Positions 3,040-26,829 of a stretch of 28,085 nt of DNA are shown in pieces. Source of the stretch: a virus; the IMG/VR virus record IMGVR_UViG_3300032246_001014, positions 1 to 28,085 of that record; one strand, written 5' to 3'. Below the pieces are notes generated by a model that worked only from the letters and a program-made list of their open reading frames with translations, had not been told where the DNA came from and ran no database searches. Made by a program: the position numbers and the translations under genes. How positions within the stretch are numbered: position 1 is the stretch's first letter; every line of letters starts with the position of its first letter.

Positions 3040-3377
3040 CGGAAGTTGTCTACGTAACCAACAACTCCGATAAAGACCTCAACTTTGAGTACAACTTTGT
3101 CGGAATTGAGTTTCCTGTTGGCAAGACGGTAGAGATACCTCTCAAGACAGCCCAACATGTTCTTGGTTACGGAGACGATGACAAGGAGAAGTATCTCGTC
3201 CAATTAGGCTTGATACGACTCCACAGCGAACTTGAAGACGCAACGGAGAAGTTCAAGCGGATAGTCATATCCGAAACTCCTCCAGGAAAGAACAGCTCGT
3301 TACCCTCGGCTGTTGGCGTAGTACCCTTGCGGATTGAAAAGTCCGTGGGGGGAAAGTCCAATCAGAGGGTTGCTTAA
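3036..3377 (+). CDS. Hypothetical head-module protein
   Basis: A 113-residue protein that starts inside the stop of the previous gene (ATGA overlap). It opens with a beta-type segment (TEVVYVTNNSDKDLNFEYNF) and continues into a charged middle (GDDDKEKYLVQLGLIRLHSE), suggesting a small alpha/beta fold with a flexible C-terminus from about residue 85. I cannot assign a family. Position between decoration proteins and the head-tail adaptor points to a head-surface or head-completion protein; this is inference from order. Confidence 0.6.
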   Translation: MTEVVYVTNNSDKDLNFEYNFVGIEFPVGKTVEIPLKTAQHVLGYGDDDKEKYLVQLGLIRLHSELEDATEKFKRIVISETPPGKNSSLPSAVGVVPLRIEKSVGGKSNQRVA

Positions 3378-7876: not shown

Positions 7877-8173
7877 ATGTCAGCAACAATCACTTGGGTT
7901 ATTCAACAACTTGACCGCCAGACATCTGATGGTTTTGTAACAACAGCGCACTGGAGAGCAAATGCAGTAGACGGTGACTACTCTGCATCTGCTTACGGTA
8001 CTTGCGGCTGGTCTGAAGGTGCACCAGTTATCCCTTATGACCAACTGACACAAGACACTGTGCTTGGTTGGGTATGGGCAGATGGCGTGGACAAAGACGC
8101 AACAGAAGCCACCTTGAATGCTCAGATTGAATTGCAAAAGAATCCAGTAACAGCAACAGGACTGCCTTGGTAA
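7877..8173 (+). CDS. Small phage protein of the DUF7936 type
   Basis: A 98-residue protein with an excellent AAAGGAG site. The pattern ITWVIQQLDRQTSDGFVTTA, followed by DGDYSASAYGTCGW and VLGWVWADG, matches a small protein family frequent in environmental phages that I recall as DUF7936; the role is unknown. It is Trp-rich and compact. It follows the fibre gene and shares its stop A with the next gene's ATG (TAATG), so it may be virion-associated or tail-assembly related, but nothing in the sequence proves that. Confidence 0.7.
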   Translation: MSATITWVIQQLDRQTSDGFVTTAHWRANAVDGDYSASAYGTCGWSEGAPVIPYDQLTQDTVLGWVWADGVDKDATEATLNAQIELQKNPVTATGLPW

Positions 8174-8394
8174 TGGATAACCAGCAGATATTCAACGCCG
8201 TAGTCAGCATTGCTGGCTTCCTTGCTGTCTTTGTGTTCACAAACTTCACAAAGCAGATTCAGAAACTTGAGGACAAAATAAATGAACTTCCTAAAGAGTA
8301 TGTGGCAAAAGATGATTACCGTTCTGACATCTCTGAAGTCAAAAATATCCTCAAGCAAATCTTTGACAAGTTAGACAACAAGGCTGACAAATGA
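8173..8394 (+). CDS. Single-TM coiled-coil small protein
   Basis: The start is chosen at the ATG overlapping the previous stop (TAATG) rather than the TTG at 8167. The 73-residue product has an N-terminal hydrophobic helix (FNAVVSIAGFLAVFVFTNF, about residues 7-25) followed by a charged coiled-coil segment (KQIQKLEDKINELP and SEVKNILKQIFDKLDNK). This layout resembles haemolysin XhlA-like or holin-accessory phage proteins, but no exact family is recognised. Position after the fibre region leaves both membrane-lysis accessory and virion-membrane roles open. Confidence 0.68.
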   Translation: MDNQQIFNAVVSIAGFLAVFVFTNFTKQIQKLEDKINELPKEYVAKDDYRSDISEVKNILKQIFDKLDNKADK

Positions 8395-11350: not shown

Positions 11351-12915
11351 TGGCTACTCAAGCACTTGGCAATGCCTTAAAAACAAATATGTCTAAGCAG
11401 CCGTCAATGACTGCGGGAGAGACATATATGCAATCTGTTGAACCCACTTTGAAAGAACTCAAAGGTGCGGAAGAAGAAAAGATGAAGGCAGAAAAAGAGA
11501 AGGCCATCTTTACTGGTGAGAGCGAGTCCAGAAGACAACAGGCTTTGTCAAAGGCAACAGAAGCAGAAGCTACTGCCATGCGGGAAGACCCTGCACGTGC
11601 ACAGTATGAAGGCTTGATTCAGGAGAAGTCCAAGGCTGAGTTCATTCCAACTCAAGAAAATGCCAAGGACATGGCGGCACTGTTCAGCCTGATGAATGTC
11701 ATCGGTTTTGCTATTGGTGCTGGTGGCAAGCAACACGCACAGCAAGCAATGTCAGCCATGAACGGCATGTTGGAAGGTCATCAAAAAGGTCGTGATGACT
11801 TGTACAGACAACAGCGCAACATCTTTGAAACCAACCAAAAGCAGTTGGATAAGAAGATTGATGACTTGTTCAAGTTCATGCAAGAAAACACCAAGTTGTA
11901 TGCCAGAGACAAGGTGGCTGCTGAACAGAATGCAAATGCCAAGTTTGCAGAAGAAGGTGCTGGTTTCTTGAAAACGTATTACGAGAAGTATGGCCCTGGC
12001 CCTGCTCTGGAATACATGAAGCAGATTGTCAAAGCAAAAGAACATGCCGCTGATTTGACTGACAGGGAAAAAACACGTGCTGAACAACAAGCCGCACGGC
12101 TGCAACAAGCTAAAGAAGTAGCTGCAATAAAAGCTGGACTTGGTACTGCACCTGCTGGCCCAAGTGTGTCAAATGACATTGAAAGCAGTGCTCAAGCTAT
12201 TGCCAATTATGCTCAGAAACCACCTGGCTTGAGAGACAAAACTCGTCCTCAAATCATGGCCCGTGTACGACAAATCAATCCAAGCTACAACGAAATGGAT
12301 TATGGTCAGCGTGACCTTGCCATGAGAAATTACACCAATCCCAACGGTACTGGTGCAAAACAACTGCAAGCGTTTACAACTGTTGCTGGTCACTTGAATA
12401 GTCTGGAAAGACTTGGAGAGGCTTTAAACAACAAAGACACACAGCTTGCCAACCAAGCATTGAATTACATTGCTGTTCAAACAGGTAATCCTGAAGTTAC
12501 AAACTTTAAAGCCGCCAAGCAAGCTGTTGCTGGTGAGGTTGTCAAAGCCATAACTGGCACTGCTGGCGCATTAGCAGACCGTAAAGAAGCCGAGCAAATC
12601 TTTAGTGAAGTTCAAGCTCCAGAACAATTGCAAGGTGCTATTGATACTGTCAAAGAATTGATTTACAGCCGTCTTGACACAACAAGAGCACACTATGAAT
12701 CTGCAACAGGTAGACATGACTTTGAAACAAGATTGCCTGATATTGTTAAGCAGACATTCATTGAAAAGAAAAGACCAACTTCTGCACCTTCACCTGCACC
12801 GCAAACATCGACATCAACAAAACCAGCAAACATCCCTGCTGATGCAAAATTAGCTTCAGATGGTTATTACTATTCACCAGACCCAACACGTCCAGGTAAA
12901 TACATAAGGCATTAA
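11347..12915 (+). CDS. Large helical virion-internal protein candidate
   Basis: A 522-residue protein translationally coupled to its upstream neighbour (ATGA). The first 260 residues are heavily charged and helical (Lys/Glu/Gln/Ala) with coiled-coil character. Residues about 300-450 hold a distinct domain containing NPSYNEMDYGQRDLAMRNYT, AGHLNSLERLGEALNN and QTGNPEVTNFKAAKQAVAGE, a pattern I have seen in phage and prophage internal proteins of unknown activity. The C-terminus is Pro/Ser/Thr-rich and ends in a short Tyr-rich motif. It probably forms part of the ejected core. I see no transglycosylase catalytic motif. Confidence 0.65.
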   Translation: MMATQALGNALKTNMSKQPSMTAGETYMQSVEPTLKELKGAEEEKMKAEKEKAIFTGESESRRQQALSKATEAEATAMREDPARAQYEGLIQEKSKAEFIPTQENAKDMAALFSLMNVIGFAIGAGGKQHAQQAMSAMNGMLEGHQKGRDDLYRQQRNIFETNQKQLDKKIDDLFKFMQENTKLYARDKVAAEQNANAKFAEEGAGFLKTYYEKYGPGPALEYMKQIVKAKEHAADLTDREKTRAEQQAARLQQAKEVAAIKAGLGTAPAGPSVSNDIESSAQAIANYAQKPPGLRDKTRPQIMARVRQINPSYNEMDYGQRDLAMRNYTNPNGTGAKQLQAFTTVAGHLNSLERLGEALNNKDTQLANQALNYIAVQTGNPEVTNFKAAKQAVAGEVVKAITGTAGALADRKEAEQIFSEVQAPEQLQGAIDTVKELIYSRLDTTRAHYESATGRHDFETRLPDIVKQTFIEKKRPTSAPSPAPQTSTSTKPANIPADAKLASDGYYYSPDPTRPGKYIRH

Positions 12916-24013: not shown

Positions 24014-24258
24014 GCTTCACCTCTGGATGTAACAGCCCACTTACAAGCATAGCAAGCATCCACCCACCCATCATCGTAATCTTCATAGTCTTTATGAGGT
24101 TCAGTGTTGTCGCTTAATTCTTCAAACAATTTTTCAATTTCTTCACGTTCTTTGGCGGCTACCAGTTTGGCAAAGTGATAGCGGGTAAACATCTCACCTT
24201 CTTCAATAGACTGACGCATGGCTTGCTGCCACATAGTGTCAATTTCATCTTGTGTCAT
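24010..24258 (-). CDS. Small acidic hypothetical protein with MTQDE start
   Basis: An 82-residue protein: MTQDEIDTMWQQAMRQSIEE, then a charged helix (AAKEREEIEKLFEELSDNTE), an acidic segment (DYEDYDDGWVDACYACKWAV) and an SRGEA end. It resembles the helical accessory genes found in arrays in phage early regions. Its ATG is one base after the stop of the small membrane protein at 24260-24364 and overlaps the stop of the 70-residue frame at 24255-24467. Function unknown. Confidence 0.65.
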   Translation of the reverse strand: MTQDEIDTMWQQAMRQSIEEGEMFTRYHFAKLVAAKEREEIEKLFEELSDNTEPHKDYEDYDDGWVDACYACKWAVTSRGEA

Positions 24259-24467
24259 GTCAGTTCTCCTTCCAGGCTTTGTACAACAGCATGATGAACA
24301 GAGGGGCTATCACTATGAGTCCACCCGCTGCTAGCAGTGCTATCAGGGCTAGTAAGTTTTCCACATATATCTCCTGTGATGGTAAGGGCTTTGATGATGG
24401 CAGAGGGGGGGTGCAATATGCCACCTTTGACTTGGTTTAAGACTTGATTTGCTTCTTGTCTGTTCAT
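24255..24467 (-). CDS. Small hypothetical protein, 3' half overprinted
   Basis: It starts at the ATG at 24465-24467 with AAAGGAAACACACAC as leader. The N-terminal half (MNRQEANQVLNQVKGGILHP; SAIIKALTITGDI) looks like a helical phage accessory protein. From about residue 35 the sequence turns into Ser/Thr/His-rich text and the same DNA encodes a clear membrane microprotein in another frame (24260-24364). So either the true gene is shorter in origin and was extended, or the two frames are used together. The frame is open upstream of the ATG too. Function unknown. Confidence 0.5.
   Translation of the reverse strand: MNRQEANQVLNQVKGGILHPPSAIIKALTITGDICGKLTSPDSTASSGWTHSDSPSVHHAVVQSLEGELT
24260..24364 (-). 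CDS. 34-residue membrane microprotein (GTG start)
   Basis: A short gene read directly from the sequence. A GTG at 24362-24364 has GGAG about six bases upstream. The product is one membrane helix with a charged end: MENLLALIALLAAGGLIVIA then PLFIMLLYKAWKEN. Its stop lies one base from the next ATG. The hydrophobic run and the Lys/Trp-containing tail are unlikely by chance. It overlaps the 3' half of the 70-residue frame at 24255-24467 out of frame. Role unknown; it could affect the host inner membrane. Confidence 0.5.
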   Translation of the reverse strand: MENLLALIALLAAGGLIVIAPLFIMLLYKAWKEN

Positions 24468-24790
24468 GTGTGTGTTTCCTTTAGACAATAGTAGGGACAA
24501 CGTATAGGGATGATGATTAGTCTGTGTCCTATGCGTCACCCTATTGGGTGTCAGCATTGGGGTTTTACCCTTAATGCCGTTTGCTGCTTTATTTATCAGG
24601 CCAGAGATTCTGTCTCTGCAACAGTTGACTATCAGCCTACGCGCCTGTTTATCACTTGGGGCAAAACCCTCGTGCACCCGTTTCCCTGTTGAGCCTTCGC
24701 AGGTCTCGGTCAAGGTGAACCGCTTTCCTCCCTCGCCACCACAGTCATGGGTGCTTACTATCGTGAGGGGTACGGTTGACGTAGGGGCAT

Positions 24791-24862
24791 AAAAAAAACC
24801 GTTACAACTGCCCTCGGTAGAAACCCATAGGTGAAGACCAAGGGCGAGAGCATGTGTAACGG
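24791..24862 (-). terminator. Intrinsic terminator-like nested hairpin with T8
   Basis: On the minus strand an 8-bp outer stem encloses a 9-bp inner stem and is followed directly by eight T (24791-24798 as A on plus). The outer loop is long (48 bases) but mostly filled by the inner stem. It would stop leftward transcription before the 70-residue gene. Confidence 0.45.
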
Positions 24863-24891
24863 CTTTCAATATGTTGCTTTCTACGACAACG
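24791..24891 (-). ncRNA. Candidate ~100-nt structured RNA
   Basis: Between a promoter-like pair (24898-24927) and a run of eight T on the minus strand lies a sequence that can fold into nested stems: outer CCGTTACA/TGTAACGG (24799-24806 with 24855-24862) and inner GCCCTCGGT/ACCAAGGGC (24810-24818 with 24837-24845, one wobble in the minus-strand RNA). The start near 24891 is estimated from the -10 position. No known RNA family is recognised. It lies in an open frame, so the alternative is coding sequence with a chance fold. Confidence 0.4.
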
Positions 24892-24897
24892 GGGCAG

Positions 24898-24927
24898 ATA
24901 TTAACTGAAAACAATCAGGGCTGTCAA
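24898..24927 (-). promoter_or_regulatory. Promoter-like TTGACA...TAATAT for the candidate RNA
   Basis: Minus strand: TTGACA (24922-24927, perfect -35) and TAATAT (24898-24903, 4 of 6 for the -10) with 18 bases between. It lies at the 3' end of the 59-residue gene (24901-25080). It points at the candidate RNA and terminator hairpin. Confidence 0.45.
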
Positions 24928-25080
24928 GAACCCTGTTGCAAAGGCACACAGGTATATAAGTACCCTGTCCGACAATGGGGACTTATCCTGCCATGCAGGG
25001 GCAGCGGGAAAGGCTTCCGACAAGGTACGGGGATACCTACGGGGGGTGTCGTTCAGGGACTCAGGCTTGAATTTAATCAT
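24901..25080 (-). CDS. Small protein with C-terminal membrane segment (59 aa)
   Basis: A short gene read directly from the sequence. ATG at 25078-25080, GGAG 7 bases upstream (with TAGCCCC between), and an ATGA overlap with the upstream gene's stop. The product has a Pro/Arg-rich N-terminus (KPESLNDTPRRYPRTLSEAF; PAAPAWQDKSPLSDR) and a C-terminal membrane helix (VLIYLCAFATGFLTALIVFS). The RYPRTLSEAFP motif reminds me of phage membrane proteins with an RYPRTLAEAF-type core, function unknown. A promoter-like sequence is embedded in its last codons. Confidence 0.65.
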   Translation of the reverse strand: MIKFKPESLNDTPRRYPRTLSEAFPAAPAWQDKSPLSDRVLIYLCAFATGFLTALIVFS

Positions 25081-25271
25081 GGGGCTACTCCATCTTTTTG
25101 TAAATAAGGGCCACAGTCCCCGAATTGGATAGCAAAGCCTTTTTTAAATTCAATTATTTTCACTGCTTTGCATTCATTCTTATATTGGTAAGGGTTTGTG
25201 AAATGTTGATTCTTGTATGGTTCGGCGGCTTTCTCTGCTTCATCGCGGGTTTTGAAATAAATTGGTTTCAT
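25077..25271 (-). CDS. Small basic hypothetical protein
   Basis: The start is placed at the ATG at 25269-25271, which has AAAGGATAGCCCC upstream; an upstream open stretch to 25352 belongs to the neighbouring frame. The product has 64 residues: PIYFKTRDEAEKAAEPYKNQ, then NECKAVKIIEFKKGFAIQFG and a C-terminal YLQKDGVAP. It looks like a compact beta-alpha unit. No family recognised. Confidence 0.62.
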   Translation of the reverse strand: MKPIYFKTRDEAEKAAEPYKNQHFTNPYQYKNECKAVKIIEFKKGFAIQFGDCGPYLQKDGVAP

Positions 25272-25282
25272 GGGGCTATCCT

Positions 25283-25447
25283 TTAATCGAAATGTGTAGG
25301 GGCTTTGTAATCTTCTTCTAGCCATGCCATGACGGTGCAAATGTCGTTCCATTTTTCATCATGCACGGCTACGCCTTCTGGGATAACTTGGTCACGGTAG
25401 TCGCACAATACATCCCACAGAAAATCAATAATATTTTTCTCAGTCAT
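25283..25447 (-). CDS. Small acidic hypothetical protein (54 aa)
   Basis: A short gene read directly from the sequence. ATG at 25445-25447 preceded by AAAGGAGTTAGCCCC, and an ATGA overlap with the gene upstream. The product (MTEKNIIDFLWDVLCDYRDQ; AVHDEKWNDICTVMAWLEED) is an acidic helical protein with two Cys. The reading frame, ribosome site and coupling agree. Function unknown. Confidence 0.62.
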   Translation of the reverse strand: MTEKNIIDFLWDVLCDYRDQVIPEGVAVHDEKWNDICTVMAWLEEDYKAPTHFD

Positions 25448-25752
25448 GGGGCTAACTCCTTTGGTACTTCAATTTCATCACCTAATTTGCTGGCAACAAA
25501 GCAGCGCATAGCGGCAACCAGAGGGGTTGATGCACGGTGGCAAATGGGGCTGTCGTTATCGCTGGCTGTCCATGCTTTGCCATCAAAGTCAATAGCAATC
25601 TTTTCACGTTCAATAATGGGGCCACCTTGCGCCCAATTGGTTGATGGTTTGAATATGCGTTGAGCAAAATCTACCGGCTGAGGTTGAATATATCCCTCTG
25701 CTATTTGCACTGCATAGTCAAGCGCAGTTCCTGTCAATTCGCTTGTTTTCAT
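25444..25752 (-). CDS. NinX-like (DUF2591) protein
   Basis: A 102-residue protein from the ATG at 25750-25752. The start MKTSELTGTALDYAVQIAEG, the middle FKPSTNWAQGGPIIEREKIA and the end STPLVAAMRCFVASKLGDEI match the phage DUF2591/NinX pattern. NinX-like proteins sit in early or nin regions of many phages and have no proven activity. The GTGACC before the ATG also occurs in the gene at 22816-23073. Its ATGA overlap couples it to the downstream small gene. Confidence 0.75.
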   Translation of the reverse strand: MKTSELTGTALDYAVQIAEGYIQPQPVDFAQRIFKPSTNWAQGGPIIEREKIAIDFDGKAWTASDNDSPICHRASTPLVAAMRCFVASKLGDEIEVPKELAP

Positions 25753-26193: not shown

Positions 26194-26829
26194 TTAGGCC
26201 GTTACTGGTTCACTTGTAACGGTCTTAGGCCGTGAGCACCAAGTAGGAATATTGACGCTGCCATGTTCCCGCATAGGCATAATAATGCCTACAAACAAGG
26301 GTTCACTATCAATATTGACAATGCCGCTATCGTTGCCCCGTTGCTTGATTTGAACGGATATACCCGTTGACTTATGCCCTCTTAAGTCGTTTGCACAATC
26401 GGCAAACGCTGCAATATATTCGGGGTTGTAAGTACTGGGTTCAAGGCCGCTATCGCTTGTCAATTTAGGAACAACACGGTCACAATCGGGAAATTTACCC
26501 TCTACCCTTTGAAATACCATGCTTGTACTATCGGGGTTGATAACGGTAATTTTTACCCCGTCAACGGTAAAGCACAATGATTCATTACCCTTTTTGCCCG
26601 TTGCTGACAAGGTTTTCACCGATTCAAGCGGTAATATCACACTGCAAGGGTTTGCTGTCGGTGTTTCGTCAACAAGCAAACGACCAAGCATATGACCGTT
26701 AGTTGCTTCGATATACGTACCACGGTTGTCCTGAACGACATGCAAACCGTTCAAGTAATAACGTATGTCCTTAGTGGCTGCAAGCCTGGACATGGCCTTA
26801 AGTTGTTTGCGTTGAATTGAGAATTGCAT
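26194..26829 (-). CDS. DNA polymerase III beta-clamp-like protein, reduced architecture
   Basis: A 211-residue protein clearly related to DnaN by motifs: DIRYYLNG (21-28, like DVRYYLNG of E. coli beta domain II), ATNGHMLG (42-49, like ATDGHRLA), VEGKFPDCDRVVPK (109-122, like VDGRFPDYRRVLPK) and IIMPMR (182-187, like the C-terminal VVMPMR). Aligned by eye, domain I is absent and only the second half of domain III is present, giving about three half-domains instead of six. A 24-residue tail follows MPMR. It may be a replication clamp of unusual oligomeric state or a regulator of the host clamp. No polymerase gene is in the window. Confidence 0.75.
   Translation of the reverse strand: MQFSIQRKQLKAMSRLAATKDIRYYLNGLHVVQDNRGTYIEATNGHMLGRLLVDETPTANPCSVILPLESVKTLSATGKKGNESLCFTVDGVKITVINPDSTSMVFQRVEGKFPDCDRVVPKLTSDSGLEPSTYNPEYIAAFADCANDLRGHKSTGISVQIKQRGNDSGIVNIDSEPLFVGIIMPMREHGSVNIPTWCSRPKTVTSEPVTA

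Follow-up and report, generated by a model that had tools for sequence, protein, structure and literature searches.

Does a viral genome encode a small RNA where a promoter-like sequence, a stable fold and a run of thymidines follow one another on one strand, or is this a chance arrangement within a reading frame? The question was raised by positions 24791 to 24927 of the window, that is, the whole stretch of 28,085 nucleotides from IMG/VR record IMGVR_UViG_3300032246_001014 that was analysed here. The initial annotation, made from the sequence alone, proposed a small RNA that is started and ended by signals of its own, a promoter and a terminator. Comparison with related phages supports this proposal. 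No transcript has been observed, and in the absence of such data we regard it as very likely that the locus encodes a real, structured phage RNA with both of these signals, which we call RNA1. Three aspects had been missed: a pseudoknot, a second structured RNA of about 300 nucleotides (RNA2) and the position of RNA1 as the first half of a conserved pair.

Promoter, terminator and folding energy

On the minus strand, the −35 element TTGACA (24922–24927) is followed after an 18-nucleotide spacer by the −10 element TAATAT (24898–24903), and transcription is predicted to start at about 24891. These elements had been claimed beforehand and their coordinates were confirmed. The pair is the top sigma70-type match (10/12) within the last 10 kb. 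RNA1, as delimited by its fold and by comparison with relatives, spans about 100 nucleotides (24791–24891, minus strand) and terminates in a T8 tract (24791–24798, minus strand). The 8-bp outer stem CCGUUACA/UGUAACGG is present at 24862–24855 and 24806–24799 of the same strand, so that the claim of such a stem followed by T8 held as well.

It had also been argued that promoter, fold and terminator in this order are unlikely by chance. This held for the fold: the 101-nucleotide RNA1 has a minimum free energy (MFE) of −38.7 kcal/mol, against −21.6 ± 3.3 for dinucleotide shuffles (z = −5.17), and none of 200 shuffles was as low. Promoter-like sites in the last 10 kb numbered 11 versus 13.9 in shuffles, which is no excess, and a terminator scan alone was no richer than shuffles. 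Since both scans taken alone remain at the shuffle level, the case for RNA1 rests on comparison.

Among the homologues, 44 of 81 distinct upstream regions score at least 10/12 against the sigma70 consensus, versus 14 of 810 shuffles. The −10 element ends 6–7 nucleotides upstream of the first G of a 5′ hairpin, P1, in 61/81 cases, and from this fixed distance transcription should begin within the first bases of P1. A T tract of T6–T9 occurs in all 83 distinct homologues, and a terminator lies directly upstream of RNA2 in 136 of 158 loci (0/474 in shuffles). RNA1 thus meets two criteria of a phage small RNA: a sigma70 promoter at a fixed distance, and a stem with a U tract at the 3′ end.

A conserved pseudoknot and the coding question

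The structure of RNA1 was assessed in an alignment of 65 copies, with 33 pairs distributed over P1, P2, P3 and a pseudoknot. In these copies 94.8% of the cells are paired, compared with 79.1% after shuffling and 36–47% after sliding. Double changes are found at 25 of the 33 pairs, in 371 cells where 98 were expected.

All the following elements lie on the minus strand. P1 (helix 1; 24873–24890) is a hairpin of the form GUUG(u)...(g)CAAC, with 96% of cells paired. Its loop contains the 5′ strand of the pseudoknot, GUAGAAA (24878–24884), whose partner is UUUCUAC (24817–24823). This helix 2 is paired in 455/455 cells of the 65 copies; five of its seven pairs are changed on both sides and two positions show all four Watson–Crick types. 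P2, the terminator stem, is closed by CCGUUACA/UGUAACGG (24799–24862) and continues with UGCUCUC/GAGGGCA (24852–24846 / 24815–24809). Together these form helices 3 and 4, in which 96–97% of cells are paired and 16 of 17 pairs are doubly changed. P3 (helix 5; 24824–24844), a CCC/GGG inner hairpin, is paired in 77% of cells.

The central feature of RNA1, as shown by covariation, is the pseudoknot between the loop of the 5′ hairpin and the stretch just 5′ of the terminator's 3′ arm. Alignment rows were admitted on a loop complement of at least 6 nucleotides, which inflates the figures for this helix. There is nonetheless some support independent of admission: the complement is absent from the search pattern and is also present in loci chosen by RNA2 alone. 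Covariation cannot separate intramolecular from intermolecular pairing of the loop. It is strong enough to provide a structure that can be tested immediately.

The 9-bp inner stem GCCCUUGGU/ACCGAGGGC of the initial annotation held only in part. It is present, and the MFE fold of the window RNA prefers it, whereas the centroid prefers the conserved fold. In relatives, 73.4% of its cells are paired, close to shuffles (71.3%). The conserved inner fold is UGCUCUC/GAGGGCA with the CCC/GGG hairpin, not this stem.

Could the fold be a chance product within an open reading frame (ORF), or nothing more than an ordinary intergenic terminator? In favour of this rival, an ORF of 219 amino acids is open across RNA1 in the window, running through RNA2 as well, and neither the promoter scan nor the terminator scan exceeds chance by itself. 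Against it, no reading frame is shared across RNA1 (the best is open in at most 36 of 65 homologues), and the lengths of RNA1, from 91 to 109 nucleotides, vary without a 3-nucleotide rhythm. There is therefore no conserved coding frame, and a protein-coding reading of the region is ruled out. Furthermore, covariation, promoter and terminator are kept in tens of divergent phages. The rival is all but excluded. The claim that the region holds no canonical gene held, despite the ORF that crosses it. A conserved frame with broken stems in relatives had been named as a refutation; the opposite was found, with stems conserved and the frame not.

RNA2, the tandem and its distribution

RNA2 begins with CCGUAC and extends over 24481–24775 on the minus strand, as judged from its covarying helices; its 3′ end is approximate. 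It measures about 300 nucleotides in the window and 230–400 overall. The spacer between the two RNAs (24776–24790, minus strand) holds CUACG (24784–24780), which again is partly complementary to the P1 loop, and the gap from T tract to RNA2 is mostly 13–19 nucleotides across loci. Compensatory changes occur in each of four sequence groups of RNA2. In 43 aligned copies of its 5′ domain, 98.3% of cells are paired and seven of eight pairs are doubly changed.

Among 162 distinct copies of RNA2, 83 have an RNA1 that matches the search pattern; of the others, the 77 with sufficient sequence upstream were analysed. Most of these 77 also show a unit of promoter, hairpin and terminator at this place: a terminator precedes RNA2 in 60 of them, against 0/474 when all upstream regions are shuffled, and 56/77 have at least 7 nucleotides of loop complement, versus 29/231 shuffles. 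In addition, an RNA1 model that lacked the pseudoknot and had none of these loci in its training set detects 49 of 67 loci chosen by RNA2 alone at E ≤ 0.03. Strongly diverged versions of RNA1 upstream of RNA2 usually keep the same topology. For L163, which shows no sequence match, this topology can be drawn by eye.

Two other readings of RNA2 were rejected. Look-alike motifs of bacterial RNase P RNA, GAGGAAAG and ACAGAA, are persuasive in the window alone. RF00010 (RNase P) gave no match in the record that contains the window, nor at E ≤ 10; this identity was rejected since there is no Rfam match and the ACAGAA-like stretch is not kept in close relatives. Full-length antisense pairing between RNA1 and RNA2 was discarded as well, own pairs being no better than swapped pairs.

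Several loci depart from the usual arrangement. Some phages carry an additional structured element (GATGGTGAATGCGCAGGCTGATGCGC ... CCACCATC or a similar one) that separates RNA1 from RNA2, and another has it within RNA2 (L226, about 11630–11795; L219, about 1917–2060; L194; L240); the element resembles a movable RNA domain. L254 (about 3310–3360) has RNA2 without a recognisable RNA1; a promoter-like site, TTGACG-N17-CAGAAT, would place its start about 13–15 nucleotides before CCGTAC, which is the usual spacer length. In L004, a different and apparently structured stretch (8036–8280) replaces RNA2 after RNA1.

The first relatives were collected through a neighbouring sliding-clamp-like gene. 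Twelve of their loci had the RNA1 region; in three of them (L017, L018, L020) it is oriented opposite to the clamp gene, and the unit is therefore not tied to the operon around it. A degenerate pattern, composed of the 5′ hairpin, the T tract and CGTAC after it, gave at least 120 matches in viral contigs. A stricter pattern with one extra base gave three matches, which were not examined and, as one more base was demanded, serve only as a rough gauge of chance. A downstream complement of the hairpin loop of at least 6 nucleotides is found in 126 of 133 pattern instances. Six of the remaining seven seem unrelated, and L102 is a true relative with mismatched pseudoknot strands. All 19 full records searched carry a single sense-strand copy of RNA1. 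The number of matches to the RNA2 5′ domain is likewise a lower bound, and RNA2 appears at least as widespread as RNA1.

The single scan of bacterial and archaeal genomes returned 13 matches. Only one is genuine; it lies on an 8.8-kb contig from a Comamonadaceae metagenome-assembled genome (MAG), and this contig is probably of phage origin. Among 301 genomes sampled from the family of this MAG, only the MAG itself matches. BLASTN with other family members found the tandem in two named records of environmental phage genomes, MW202484.1 and MW202753.1; the window's own region gave no match to named phages, and a single query against plasmids gave none. RNA1 is not an isolated case: it forms a large family in more than 100 related phages, nearly always just upstream of RNA2. 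A wide range of environmental phages carries the two RNAs, and RNA1 occurs almost nowhere in bacterial genomes.

The initial annotation recognised no RNA family, and this held. Neither the window nor 13 homologous loci match Rfam 15 at the gathering score (including GOLLD, ROOL, RNase P, tmRNA and group I introns), and scans of three regions at E ≤ 10 gave chance-level matches only. The literature searched (subscription journals and most preprints were not covered) holds no description of either RNA. RNA1 and RNA2 are thus very likely two new, previously uncatalogued families of structured phage RNA, unusual in their tandem order and in conserving shape over sequence. Structured phage RNAs are sparsely catalogued, and a single window has led to two families absent from Rfam.

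The genes downstream of RNA2 differ among phage groups. In the class of the window, the tandem lies upstream of small genes followed by recE- and recT-like genes; in another it is flanked by a P22-Cro-like gene and a replication-initiation gene. At most loci RNA2 leads straight into the ribosome-binding site of a gene. The ORF that follows RNA2 is convergent in two phages, L226 and L240; it matches a GIY-YIG domain in L226 and has no convincing family match in L240. In the window, the gene after RNA2 is probably a 70-amino-acid MNRQEANQVLNQ... protein (24255–24467, minus strand; kept in relatives), not the 219-amino-acid ORF. Elsewhere on the minus strand, three consecutive small genes have a near-identical ribosome-binding leader, GGA(G)T(T)AGCCCCATG (25437–25460, 25262–25285 and 25072–25095). 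The gene at 26194–26829 (minus strand) is labelled RusA-like resolvase in PHROGs and matches the central domain of the DNA polymerase III beta clamp in Pfam; the PHROGs label of this family is possibly wrong.

Possible functions and known systems

Comparison establishes how RNA1 folds, that it has a promoter and a terminator, that the two RNAs follow each other in a constant order and that each phage record holds one copy. The mode of action is inferred, in the absence of data on transcripts, stability or partners, and we lean only slightly towards action in trans as the main mode of both RNAs. We take RNA1 to be a true gene for a noncoding RNA, carried by tailed phages. Host sigma70 RNA polymerase would initiate at about 24891, synthesize about 100 nucleotides and stop at T8. 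The product would be compact: the P1 loop would pair just upstream of the terminator's 3′ arm and the terminator stem would close the shape, so that both ends are protected. Polymerase passing the terminator, an inferred read-through, would produce RNA2. Both RNAs may then be stable, defined by their structure and trans-acting, probably with a host or phage protein as binding partner and with a putative role early in infection. The convergent ORFs in L226 and L240 imply that the tandem needs no downstream gene. Together with the varied downstream genes they favour trans-acting noncoding RNAs over a leader of a single gene. RNA1 is kept by many streamlined genomes in variable gene surroundings, and should thus matter to infection. 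Several findings speak against action in trans: most RNA2 copies adjoin a ribosome-binding site, like a leader; one class occupies the Cro/replication location; the L102 homologue has a broken pseudoknot; and the convergent ORF of L240 lacks a convincing family match. Lambdoid phages place terminators and antitermination sites between Cro-like and replication genes.

The main rival is a cis transcription gate, in which RNA1 is a terminated leader, like lambda 6S RNA/tR′ or tR1, that silences RNA2 and the early genes behind it until antitermination sets in; RNA2, like the put RNA of HK022, may in turn target the polymerase. The constant order of promoter, terminator, RNA2 and gene, with 13–19 nucleotides before RNA2 in most loci, speaks for it, as do the Cro/replication location of one class, the fact that RNA2 usually leads into a gene and the position of putL just downstream of its promoter (PMC9378689). 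Against it, a conserved antiterminator helix of the mutually exclusive kind did not emerge, and relatives do not keep the alternative inner stem; downstream genes vary and two phages lack a same-strand gene directly after RNA2; and a gate has no need for an elaborate pseudoknot. On its layout and location the gate remains an open possibility.

An autoregulatory or immunity RNA, in the manner of P4 CI RNA or P1 C4, appears unlikely. Here the P1 loop of released RNA1 would pair with the spacer of read-through transcripts of its own phage and block RNA2 and later genes. The complementarity of loop and own spacer does exceed permuted pairs (mean 12.8 versus 10.5 ± 0.3; 0/1000), and a control stretch of RNA2 showed no such excess. 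However, the match to the spacer is imperfect, several phages lack it (e.g. L035, L037, L103, L130), RNA1 itself already offers the loop a perfect partner, and the permutation test leaves shared ancestry in.

Beyond action in trans as favoured here, a bolder reading is conceivable: RNA1 and RNA2 could belong to a single phage RNA machine whose two parts are swapped as modules and conserved in shape rather than sequence, with a P1 loop that switches between its internal partner and the spacer adjacent to RNA2. If true, it might for example act against host defence or redirect a host RNA-binding complex.

Known systems resemble the tandem in part. P4 CI RNA and P1/P7 C4 are small phage antisense RNAs from an early leader, and RNA1 could likewise pair with downstream sequence of the same strand; it differs in having no Rfam match and in carrying its conserved complement within itself. 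GOLLD and ROOL are large structured phage RNAs with kissing loops and unknown function (PMC12286853), to which RNA2 is comparable in spirit, although it measures 230–400 nucleotides and matches no Rfam model. The put RNA of HK022 (put-L, put-R) is, like RNA1, a phage RNA element with which an early transcript begins (PMC9378689). It has about 70 nucleotides and two stem-loops and acts on the polymerase to pass terminators, whereas RNA1, with three helices, a pseudoknot and an intrinsic terminator, differs from this terminator-free form. The lambda 6S RNA/tR′ late leader and tR1 combine a strong promoter, a short transcript and a terminator before phage genes. RNA1 shares this arrangement but adds a conserved pseudoknot and a second structured RNA. 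Lastly, the pRNA of phi29 is a phage RNA of about 100 nucleotides whose complementary, covarying loops pair between molecules in the packaging motor. RNA1 resembles it in size and loops, and its loop pairing could also be intermolecular; its topology, its own terminator and its early-gene location set it apart.
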